64,000 bases of DNA, from assembly GCA_003223215.1 (NCBI GenBank), contig QHYH01000115.1:1-64000 (forward strand). Direction: 5' to 3'. Made by a program: the position numbers and the translations under genes. The stretch is from Acidobacteriota bacterium (GTDB taxonomy: Bacteria > Acidobacteriota > Terriglobia > Acidiferrales > UBA7541). Below, piece after piece: positions 43,831-49,710 of this stretch; positions within the stretch are counted from its first letter, which is position 1; every line of letters starts with the position of its first letter. Below the pieces are notes generated by a model. That model did not search any database, had not been told where the DNA came from, and saw only the letters and a program-made list of their open reading frames with translations.

Positions 43831-46497
<2,667 letters not shown>

Positions 46498-46567
46498 CCT
46501 GGCGATCCTTTCGCTCCTGGAGAGCAGCTTTCTATCATAGCCGAAATCGCATCGGCGCGCCGGGGGC

Positions 46568-46573
46568 TATACT
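46568..46573 (+). promoter_or_regulatory. Candidate -10 box of the radical SAM/ATP-grasp operon
   Basis: TATACT, 9 bases before the ATG at 46583, in the short aconitase/radical SAM divergent region. If it is used, transcription would begin only a few bases before the start codon, leaving an almost leaderless mRNA. No convincing -35 element was found. Confidence 0.35.
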
Positions 46574-46582
46574 AATAGGGAA

Positions 46583-48043
46583 ATGAATATTGTTCTGATA
46601 TCGACGTACGAACTGGGACGGCAGCCTTTTGGGTTGGCGTCCCCGGCGGCGTGGCTGCGAAAGGGCGGGCACACGGTGAGCTCGCTCGACTTGTCGCGGC
46701 AGCCGCTCGATGAGGCCGCGGTTCGCGAAGCCGCGCTCGTCGCGGTCTATTTGCCCATGCACACGGCGACCCGGCTCGGGGCGCAGCTCGTTCCGACGCT
46801 GCGCCGGCTGAATCCGCGCGCGCACCTGTGCTGCTACGGTTTGTACGCGCCGACGAACGCGGAATTTCTGCGTACCCTGGGCGTCTGTACGATTCTCGGC
46901 GGCGAGTTTGAAGAGGGGCTGGCGCATCTCGCAGATCGCCTGAGGCGGAATGGAAGCGGAAATGGCTGCGGCGCTTCAAGCGTTCCGCAGTCGGAGCCGT
47001 TGATTTCTTTGGCCCGGCAGAGATTCATTCCGCCCGACCGGCAAGGACTCGCGGCGCTTGCGAGCTACGCGCACGTCGTCCTTCCGTCCGGTGAGCATCG
47101 CCTTGCCGGTTATACCGAAGCGAGCCGCGGATGCAAGCATTTGTGCCGCCATTGCCCGATTGTGTCGGTTTACCAAGGAATGTTCCGGGTAGTGGATCGT
47201 GAAGTTGTGCTCGCGGACGTTCGCCAGCAGGTGGTGGCCGGCGCGCAACACATTACCTTCGGCGATCCGGATTTTTTCAATGGCAGCGGGCATGCCACGG
47301 CCATTGTCGAAGCCCTGCACCAGGAATTTCCCCGCCTCACCTACGACGTAACCATCAAGATCGAGCACTTGTTGAAACACCAGCGGCACCTCGCGACCCT
47401 GCGCGATACGGGTTGCCTCTTCGTGACCAGCGCCGTCGAATCGCTGGATGACGAGGTGTTGCGCCGCCTGGACAAAGGTCACACGCGGGCGGATTTTCTC
47501 GAGGTGACCCGCATCTTTCGTGACTTGGATTTGGTCTTGCACGCGACCTTTGTGCCCTTCACGCCCTGGACGACGCTGGACAGCTACCTCGAATTGCTGC
47601 GCGTCTTGCGAGAAAACGATTTGGTCGAAAACGTTGCGCCGATTCAGCTGGCGATTCGTCTGCTGATTCCTCGAGGTTCGCGATTGTTGGAACTCGATGA
47701 GATCCGACATTTGGCTGGCCCGTTTGATCCTTCCGCGCTCGTATACCCGTGGAGCAATGCGGATGCGCGTGTTGACGCGCTCGGCGCGGAGATGGAACAA
47801 ATCGTCTCAGGCGGCGAAAAGCACAAGCTTCCGCGGCAAGCGATCTTCGAGCGCATCTGGAAGGCAGCGCACGAAGCAGCCGGTGTCGAAACGGAGCTTG
47901 CCGCGCGGCCCGTTCTCGTGTCGCGCCCGGCAATCCCGTACCTCAATGAGCCTTGGTACTGTTGAGCTGAGCCAACGCAGGACCAGTTGGTCCGGCTCGC
48001 CGAAGCCAAACAGTCTTTGCCACAAACGGAGTCGTTCGTTTGA
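46583..48043 (+). CDS. CUAEP-tail radical SAM selenoprotein (TGA 47963-47965 read as selenocysteine)
   Basis: Radical SAM enzyme of 486 residues if TGA codon 461 encodes selenocysteine (460 if it is a stop). N-terminal ~120 residues resemble a B12-binding-like Rossmann domain (MNIVLISTYELGRQPFGLAS). The SAM/4Fe-4S motif is CxxxCxxC (GCKHLCRHC; Cys184, 188, 191), followed by radical SAM barrel elements (ITFGDPDFFNG; TGCLFVTSAVESLDDEVLRRLDKG in part). The end reads Tyr-Cys-TGA-Ala-Glu-Pro, the tail for which the CUAEP/CCAEP-tail radical SAM family is named, as I recall. The extended frame adds 25 residues after the TGA, stops at 48041-48043 and overlaps the ATP-grasp start by 4 bases. Substrate unknown. 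Confidence 0.88.
47963..47998 (+). promoter_or_regulatory. Bacterial SECIS-like element after the selenocysteine TGA
   Basis: TGA at 47963-47965 is followed by a two-part hairpin. The lower stem is GAGCC (47969-47973) with GGCTC (47994-47998). A 6-base bulge separates it from the upper stem GGACC (47980-47984) with GGTCC (47989-47993), capped by loop AGTT. The apical loop begins 19 bases after the TGA and has a G among its first two bases. These are the features I recall for bacterial SECIS elements, which SelB binds. Not tested by folding software. Confidence 0.75.
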
Positions 48044-49377
48044 ACCGAGAGCCTGTGTCCTCGACAGCCAATAACACCGCCAAACGCCTGCTGCTCTTCA
48101 CGGCGAAACTGGGCTACCAGACGCGGAGCTTTGAGGAAGCGGCGCGCAAACTGGGCGTCCAGCTCGTTTACGTCACCGATCGCTGCCACGAACTGGAAGA
48201 TCCCTGGGGCGATCAAGCCATTCCCGCGCACTTCGAGTCTCCCGAGGAAGCTGCGCACGGGGTGATAGAAAAACTGCGCGGCCAGGAAATGTCGGGAGTG
48301 TTGGCGCTCGGAGATCGTCCCGCGGCCGCTGCGGCCTATGCTGCGCGCGCTCTCGGAGTCCCTTATAACCATCCGGCCGCGGTCGAGGCTTGCCGAAGCA
48401 AATTACGGATGCGCGAAGTGTTTCGGGACGCGGGATTGCCTGTGCCGTGGTTTCGCCGTTTTCTCGTCGCCCCACTTCCCGAGCCTTCGCTTGCCGGAAT
48501 TTTCTTCCCCTGCGTGCTGAAGCCGCTTTCGCTTTCGGCCAGCCAGGGGGTGATGCGAGCAAATAGCCAGGACGAATTTCTTGCGGCCGCTTCGCGCCTC
48601 CGACGGCTGCTCGAATCGGCCGAGATTCGCTCGACGCGCGAGCCGTATCTGGATCAGATGATTGTGGAAGGCTATATCCCGGGTAGGGAAGTGGCCGTTG
48701 AGGGACTCCTGAGCGACGGCACTTTGCGAATCCTGGCGATTTTCGACAAGCCCGATCCCCTGGAAGGTCCGTATTTCGAAGAGACGATTTATGTCACGCC
48801 GTCACGGCTTCCTCAGTCCGCGCAAAATCAAATCGAGAAGTGCGCGGGAGAGGCAACCCGTGCGCTGGGCCTGACTCACGGACCCATTCACGCGGAGTTT
48901 AGAATCAATGACGAAGGAATATGGCCCATCGAGGTCGCGGCGCGCCCCATTGGCGGCCTCTGCGCGCGAGCTTTACGGTTTTGCGCGAGCGAAGCGGAGC
49001 CGCCCATGGGGCTCGAGGAATTGCTCCTGCGCCACGCCTGCAGGATGCCCGGCAGCGACGCGCCGCGGGAAAGCGAAGCTTCCGGCGTGATGATGATTCC
49101 TGTTCCGCACGGCGGCATCGTGGAAAGCGTTACGCAAGTGGAATCCGCGCGCGCGACTCACCTTATTACCGACCTGGTCATCACCGCGCGCCTTCATGAT
49201 TACATTGCGGCGTGGCCGGAAGGCTCGAGCTATTTGGGTTTTCTCTTTGCAAGAGGAAACACGCCCGAAGAGGTGGAGCGCTCGATCCGCGAGGCGCACC
49301 AGAAATTGCGCTTTGGCATCACGCCGCGTCTGCCGGTGGAGCACCCCGCGACTCATCGCCTGCCCGTCGGCGGATAA
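48040..49377 (+). CDS. ATP-grasp domain protein, partner of the radical SAM selenoprotein
   Basis: 445 residues, ATP-dependent carboxylate-amine/thiol ligase superfamily. The TTG start at 48040 overlaps the extended selenoprotein stop (TTGA) and has GGAG at 48028-48031, spacing 8. N-terminal pre-ATP-grasp domain: LLFTAKLGYQTRSFEEAARK and GVLALGDRPAAAAAYAARALG in part. ATP-grasp elements: PCVLKPLSLSASQGV (Lys and flexible loop), EGYIPGREVAVEGLLSDG, and metal ligands in HAEFRINDEGIWPIEVAARP. The last ~100 residues (GVMMIPVPHGGIVESV) form a RimK-like or biotin-carboxylase-like C-terminal part. Likely ligates an amine or amino acid to a carboxylate in the same pathway as the radical SAM enzyme. 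Confidence 0.88.
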   Translation: MNREPVSSTANNTAKRLLLFTAKLGYQTRSFEEAARKLGVQLVYVTDRCHELEDPWGDQAIPAHFESPEEAAHGVIEKLRGQEMSGVLALGDRPAAAAAYAARALGVPYNHPAAVEACRSKLRMREVFRDAGLPVPWFRRFLVAPLPEPSLAGIFFPCVLKPLSLSASQGVMRANSQDEFLAAASRLRRLLESAEIRSTREPYLDQMIVEGYIPGREVAVEGLLSDGTLRILAIFDKPDPLEGPYFEETIYVTPSRLPQSAQNQIEKCAGEATRALGLTHGPIHAEFRINDEGIWPIEVAARPIGGLCARALRFCASEAEPPMGLEELLLRHACRMPGSDAPRESEASGVMMIPVPHGGIVESVTQVESARATHLITDLVITARLHDYIAAWPEGSSYLGFLFARGNTPEEVERSIREAHQKLRFGITPRLPVEHPATHRLPVGG

Positions 49378-49710
49378 TTATCCTTTGGCTTTGGGGGGGA
49401 CGTACCCTTCGGGCAATTTCGCGCCTTCCCCGAAAAAGAACTGCTCCATCTGCTCTCCCATGATTTTTTGCGAGTTGGGGTCCAGCGGATTCAGCCGGTA
49501 CTCGTTCATGACCATCTTCGAGTATTCGAGCCACAGCTTCCAAGCATCTTTCGAAACGTTCTCGTAAACGCGTTTCCCCAGTTCGCCCTGCCACGGGATG
49601 CGGTCCAGCCCCGGCAATTCCTTCCCGAACTTCACGCATTTCACCATGCGCGTTCCGGGCTTCACCGGCTCGCTGGGTGCCGGCGTTGGGTCGCAGGATT
49701 CGTTGGCCAT
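49378..49710 (-). CDS. yggX: Fe(2+)-trafficking / oxidative damage protection protein YggX
   Basis: 110 residues. The ~90-residue core matches YggX: MVKCVKFGKELPGLD, PWQGELGKRVYENVSKDAW, MVMNEYRLNPLDPNSQK and EQMEQFFFGEG. The ~20 N-terminal residues are an extension. YggX protects iron-sulfur enzymes from oxidative damage or traffics ferrous iron. It converges on the ATP-grasp gene with no base between stop codons (TAA directly followed by the complementary TTA). Its location beside an Fe-S radical SAM gene and near aconitase is suggestive but may be chance. Confidence 0.93.
   Translation of the reverse strand: MANESCDPTPAPSEPVKPGTRMVKCVKFGKELPGLDRIPWQGELGKRVYENVSKDAWKLWLEYSKMVMNEYRLNPLDPNSQKIMGEQMEQFFFGEGAKLPEGYVPPKAKG

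Follow-up and report, generated by a model that had tools for sequence, protein, structure and literature searches.

A radical SAM gene with a predicted in-frame selenocysteine codon and its ATP-grasp partner in Acidobacteriota, compared with the CUAEP/CCAEP-tail family and ArsL

Radical SAM proteins ending in the tail C-(U/C)-A-E-P are collected in the NCBIfam family NF040546 (rSAM_CUAEP), the CUAEP/CCAEP-tail radical SAM (seleno)proteins. The name and description of this family contain neither Sec-Sec or Sec-Cys tails nor a ligase partner, and a 2026 review on the selenoproteins of prokaryotes (PMC13188914) does not mention NF040546 in its available main text. In the literature searched, which did not extend to PMC9879109 and PMC12013261, nothing was found on CUAEP, on NF040546 or on ATP-grasp, radical SAM and selenoprotein jointly, and among the papers listed none described Sec-Sec or Sec-Cys tails. 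Judged by sequence, the nearest characterised relative of the enzyme presented here is ArsL. ArsL has been proposed to take the aminocarboxypropyl group from SAM and pass it on to As(III) (PMC8552651). As conserved residues, the available text of that paper names only the three cluster cysteines, so the role given to the tail below is one that we infer ourselves. For the neighbouring gene the closest solved relative is the L-amino acid ligase BL00235, for which Met-Gly and Met-Met are listed as products (PMC6920838).

The locus lies in a stretch of 64,000 nucleotides from an Acidobacteriota bacterium, referred to as the window. Its relevant features are:

46583-48043, + strand: radical SAM gene coding for a predicted selenoprotein of 486 residues with Sec461, stop included (NF040546 match; TGA read as Sec)
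47132-47155, + strand: CxxxCxxC radical SAM motif (Cys184, Cys188, Cys191), invariant in 33 aligned relatives (PF04055, 48.6 bits)
47960-47965, + strand: predicted Cys460-Sec461 pair, codons TGT TGA (pair counted in 149 distinct readable loci)
47966-48043, + strand: tail past the UGA, 25 codons and stop, missed by ordinary gene callers (sequence, ORF list)
47969-47998, + strand: putative bacterial SECIS with lower arms 47969-47973/47994-47998 and upper hairpin 47980-47993 with an AGUU loop (sequence; covariation for the upper hairpin)
48040-49377, + strand: ATP-grasp/L-amino acid ligase-like gene with a TTG start (PF13535, 123.9 bits; PF18603 LAL_C2, 46.1 bits)
49378-49710, - strand: YggX-type Fe(II) trafficking protein, a recurrent neighbour (PF04362, 122.5 bits)

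The radical SAM gene starts with an ATG at 46583, and its Cys codon (47960-47962) is followed directly by a TGA (47963-47965). The first-pass annotation of this DNA had proposed that the TGA encodes selenocysteine, and its description of the frame is borne out: behind Tyr-Cys-TGA the frame continues with Ala-Glu-Pro for 25 sense codons to the stop TGA at 48041-48043, which overlaps the TTG start of the next gene (48040) by four bases in the sequence TTGA. Ordinary calling indeed truncates the gene, as the ORF list made with table 11 ends it at 47965, after 460 amino acids. The tail family that the annotation had named proved to be NF040546. The window protein matches it with 635.5 bits over residues 3-469 (cut-off 500), shares its tail and its Cys/Sec interchange, and is thus a new member of a family that was already known. 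The partner role of the ligase, the kinship to ArsL and the Sec-Sec forms are additions to what had been noted before.

Relatives of this soil-bacterium enzyme are spread over many bacteria. At least 568 were found in named genome contigs, and the best 80 of these, which were kept, come according to their record titles from Acidobacteria, NC10, Calditrichia, Chloroflexi, Gemmatimonadetes, Latescibacterota, Proteobacteria and others. The nearest among the matches listed are Acidobacteria gp2 MAGs with 79% identity. Within Acidobacteriota, 48 of 297 sampled genomes carry an NF040546 enzyme above the cut-off. Conservation continues past the TGA, as had been expected of a translated tail. In an alignment that took in 33 of the 45 proteins at hand, the Glu-Pro after the pair is invariant, and the invariant tail residues are P452, E456, W458, C460, Sec/Cys461, E463 and P464. 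A few members (L059, L125, L180) have Ser instead of Ala after the pair, giving CUSEP.

It had also been predicted that homologues carry Cys or Sec in the tail, and this holds at both pair positions in 123 of 126 loci (46 + 80). The remaining three have no readable motif: L097 and L112 end at contig ends and L062 has a frame break. In L062 (genome G001), WYC-stop-AEP stands in another frame than the gene body, which indicates a frameshift or an assembly error. As the search pattern demanded C or U at both positions, other residues would appear as unreadable loci and not as exceptions. Over 149 distinct readable loci, with these three and four duplicates left out, the pair is Cys-Sec in 112, Cys-Cys in 32, Sec-Sec in three and Sec-Cys in two. 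On a FastTree tree, built without the too short L078, the Cys/Sec label switches at least 16 times, and at least 11 of these switches are forced by well-supported branches.

The selenocysteine machinery that had been presumed to exist elsewhere in the cell is present in the window's own genome, with matches to selA (567.9 bits), selB (354.1), selD (351.4) and tRNA-Sec (selC, 65.4). Near its cut-off the tRNA-Sec family RF01852 is unspecific, exceeding it in five of 14 controls and in the SelA-less genomes G088 and G293 as well; reliance is therefore placed only on the 65.4-bit match from the own genome. Among the genomes of the phylum, SelA is above cut-off in 45 of 48 that carry the enzyme versus 191 of 297 overall, and in 37 of 37 with a UGA tail versus five of eight with a Cys tail (Fisher 0.004). 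Three further enzyme genomes have SelA, their tails being cut (G188, G128) or frame-broken (G001). SelB above cut-off is absent in two UGA genomes, G110 and G287. The selD match of the own genome (G000:C89:13265-14227, L085) holds one in-frame TGA, and from its sequence SelD may be a selenoprotein too.

The hairpin that the first-pass annotation had placed behind the TGA stood in its parts, although not as the minimum-energy fold. Both arms and the AGTT loop, 19 bases past the TGA, are present: GAGCC (47969-47973) faces GGCTC (47994-47998) in the lower stem, and GGACC (47980-47984) faces GGTCC (47989-47993) around the loop (47985-47988) in the upper one. The single sequence folds with -18.6 kcal/mol (z -2.36; six of 200 shuffles equally good), yet different bases pair in its minimum-energy structure, and a comparison of relatives was therefore called for. 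Rfam returned six weak matches for 46000-49500 at E values up to 10, no SECIS family among them.

For the comparison, rows were thinned of near copies, from 113 to 73 with UGA and from 32 to 30 with Cys. In the UGA rows, a seven-pair hairpin was paired in 79.1% of cells versus 63.5% after shuffling, a value equalled by none of 500 shuffles, and two-sided changes numbered 96 versus 38.8 (none of 500 as high). When the hairpin partner was slid, the best version reached 52.4%. Two of the five covariation measures fell within the shuffles in these rows, namely the number of pairs with a two-sided change (six; 125 of 500 as high) and that of further pair types (18; reached by 111 of 500). In the Cys rows 49.5% of cells were paired versus 46.0% after shuffling (39 of 500 as high). 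This contrast between UGA and Cys rows is strong, to be read with the provisos that kinship inflates covariation counts, that the Cys rows are fewer and that the contrast is not a formal test. Conversely, the count assumes a five-base loop, which puts rows with a four-base loop, the window's included, out of register, and hence understates the hairpin. A simple stem search, which left out two of the 149 loci as too short, found a stem of at least five pairs in 103 of 113 UGA rows and in 14 of 32 Cys rows. The hairpin is kept in some Cys rows (e.g., L118, L141), as would be expected of a recent Sec-to-Cys change. In all, covariation of the upper hairpin in relatives supports a putative SECIS directly behind the UGA.

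From these comparisons the UGA at 47963-47965 almost certainly encodes selenocysteine. It is very probable that the gene as a whole is an NF040546 radical SAM enzyme whose UGA is read as Sec with the help of the hairpin just 3' of it, and that a ligase-like ATP-grasp protein is nearly always encoded in the same genome.

The five loci with Sec at the first position of the pair are all from Chloroflexota. Three of them (L143, L154, L168) have a tandem Trp-Tyr-UGA-UGA-Ala-Glu-Pro, and two (L146, L194) have UGA-Cys, the genome of L194 being in the same class as that of L154. The tail behind the pair is conserved in these loci, and the tree places all five in a single group (support 86). SelA is above cut-off in all five genomes, and SelB in the four of four that were tested. 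Tandem Sec-Sec codons would burden the recoding machinery unusually.

The gene downstream codes for a protein with an ATP-grasp domain and an LAL C-terminal domain, modelled with a mean pLDDT of 89.5. No NCBIfam family matches it above its cut-off. The ligases BL00235 (3vot) and BacD have the same domains, BL00235 being closest by sequence and fold (profile match 237.1 bits, Foldseek 1.8e-31) with an identity of about 25%. An alignment was made of the window's ligase with 28 of 32 others. When a ligase relative is called at E 1e-30 or better, it occurs in 54 of the 297 Acidobacteriota genomes: in all 48 with the enzyme versus six of the 249 others. Two of these six (G213, G080) hold enzyme fragments below cut-off, and the other four are 72% (G057), 77% (G226), 92% (G017) and 96% (G278) complete. 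The ligase gene lies within 6 kb of the enzyme gene in 33 of the 48 genomes, in several orientations, and elsewhere in 15.

The same pattern recurs in a second, distant group, the class of G299, which is the genome of L154 and an Anaerolineae record. Here, the ligase is found in 33 of 35 enzyme genomes (34 of them above the family cut-off) versus nine of 263 others, and was not found in the enzyme genomes G301 and G417. Of the 33 pairs, two are close (G513, G598); in three the genes are far apart on one contig, and in 28 they are on separate contigs. The co-occurrence has Fisher values of 3.6e-49 in Acidobacteriota and 3e-33 in the second group, both too optimistic because the genomes are related. 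Judged by co-occurrence, the ATP-grasp gene downstream is close to an obligate partner of the enzyme. The fact that the enzyme is nearly always found in genomes with a ligase-like gene points to an undescribed small-molecule pathway.

What this pathway may make can be approached from the relatives of the enzyme. In the NCBIfam ranking, NF040546 is followed by ArsL (NF040542) with 265.2 bits, below its cut-off of 450, and by a third family with 40 bits. Four ArsL-type proteins fetched from plasmids are 29.6-35.2% identical to the window enzyme. Their tails read RCCLKC, and the vicinal cysteines of all four align with Cys460-Sec461. The window enzyme differs in having CUAEP in place of RCCLKC, in lacking the third tail Cys and in carrying an extra segment before the tail. 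All four ArsL-type loci lie among arsenic or arsinothricin genes, in contrast to NF040546 loci, which almost never do. Using 12 arsenic-cluster proteins from these plasmids as tblastn queries, no match was obtained in the window, and of 124 loci just two had a hit in their flanks, L116 (ArsC-like) and L140 (ArsM-like, weak); the queries did recover their own source loci. The near absence of arsenic genes makes arsenic less likely as the acceptor. An ATP-grasp gene with domains similar to those of the window's is present in three of the four ArsL-type loci, from Priestia, Alicyclobacillus and Pantoea (L200, L201, L203), the proteins being 23-26% identical where they align. The association of both enzyme branches with a ligase of this type is suggestive but does not prove orthology. 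In the ATP-grasp-bearing ArsL-type clusters, an amino acid may be attached to arsinothricin-like products in a further step.

A predicted model of the enzyme, built from 33 sequences with Sec entered as Cys, has a mean pLDDT of 92.1 and a pTM of 0.91, and the two ten-residue blocks that hold the pair average 89 and 85. It consists of a cobalamin-type fold and a radical SAM barrel. The matches are cobalamin-fold radical SAM enzymes, namely AprD4 (Z 26.6; 402 residues, rmsd 3.5), OxsB (24.3), MgmA (24.1) and TsrM (23.2), which have the fold in common over most of the chain at 14-17% identity. The AprD4 alignment stops at model residue 435, before the tail. The B12-binding domain PF02310 scores 19 bits, below its cut-off of 32.1, and the fold matches include enzymes with cobalamin.

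Neighbouring genes were clustered at 124 loci, from 7 kb upstream to 8.5 kb downstream of the enzyme gene start. The clustering includes antisense shadows and names no families itself, so names come from one Pfam-scanned member per cluster. As minimum counts, partly inflated by gene order common to close relatives, the ligase occurs at 73 loci, YggX at 46, Nfu at 32, a POT-family peptide transporter at 12 and DUF169 at eight. YggX and Nfu are never found in one locus (examples of such neighbours are at L066 and, for YggX, at 49378-49710 of the window). In many of its 12 loci (L039, L042, L045, L056, L079 and others) the transporter gene lies approximately 1.5 kb upstream of the enzyme. A gene of the DUF169 cluster stands between enzyme and ligase genes in L108, L113, L117 and L120.

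By analogy with these systems, the enzyme quite possibly works like ArsL and builds an unusual amino acid, which the ligase would turn into a dipeptide. Firstly, the Cys-Sec pair, placed like the CC of the ArsL CC-LKC tail, would hold a soft acceptor atom at the active site, be it a metalloid, a metal or a chalcogen. Secondly, SAM would be cleaved to give a 3-amino-3-carboxypropyl fragment. Thirdly, this fragment would be put on the acceptor atom, yielding a methionine-like or glutamate-like amino acid. Lastly, the ligase would couple this amino acid to a second one, and the neighbouring Nfu or YggX would serve the iron-sulfur cluster. Methionine itself is an aminocarboxypropyl group on sulfur, and the nearest ligase makes methionine dipeptides, which agrees with this mechanism without proving it; the peptide transporter beside some enzyme copies is likewise consistent with it. 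Arguments against ArsL-like chemistry are the score below the ArsL cut-off, the lacking third tail Cys, the near absence of arsenic genes and the best fold matches being other cobalamin-fold enzymes. Extended to the family, there is possibly a widespread, undescribed two-enzyme pathway in which a Sec-dependent ArsL-like enzyme makes a soft-element amino acid for an obligate ligase and thus a dipeptide, with a vicinal Sec-Sec pair in catalysis or binding in some Chloroflexota.

Rather doubtful is a role of the pair in redox chemistry or as a hydrogen-atom relay, in which Cys-Sec would quench a substrate radical or be re-oxidised to a selenenylsulfide at each turnover, while the enzyme would apply the usual 5'-deoxyadenosyl chemistry to a product or substrate of the ligase, either an amino acid or a peptide. 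The occurrence of CC, CU, UC and UU is what a reversible dichalcogenide would allow, and AprD4, the top fold match, is a dehydratase. However, in sequence the enzyme is closest to ArsL and not to AprD4 (265.2 versus 19.5 bits). Vicinal Cys pairs, moreover, form strained disulfides, which speaks against a relay of this kind.

It is unlikely that the pair provides ligands to an auxiliary metal site, or that the enzyme modifies a metallophore or another metal-binding product whose peptide bond the ligase builds. An iron or Fe-S gene is a recurrent neighbour, as expected in that case (YggX at 46 and Nfu at 32 of the 124 loci, never both), but both belong to the housekeeping genes, their role here may be confined to the SAM cluster, and gene order conserved among related genomes may partly explain their presence. 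That the UGA is a true stop behind Tyr-Cys and the tail a decayed remnant is highly improbable and was dropped in view of tail conservation and Sec machinery: the ordinary ORF finishes at the UGA, as does the Thermomicrobium roseum CDS in the plasmid collection, but 32 loci have Cys at this position, the Glu-Pro behind it is invariant, the hairpin is retained mainly alongside UGA and the genome holds the complete machinery.

If the preferred reading, ArsL-like chemistry followed by ligation, is true, many soil and sediment bacteria would contain a hidden biosynthetic pathway. For an orphan selenoprotein family there is now a partner enzyme, together with the chemistry of the nearest characterised relative and a strain with a name, Thermomicrobium roseum DSM 5159, in which the gene is present with the UGA (L199, 8935-10389). 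The public T. roseum CDS stops at the UGA despite its product name, CUAEP/CCAEP-tail; as in the plain ORF call of the window, the residue that matters lies just past its end.
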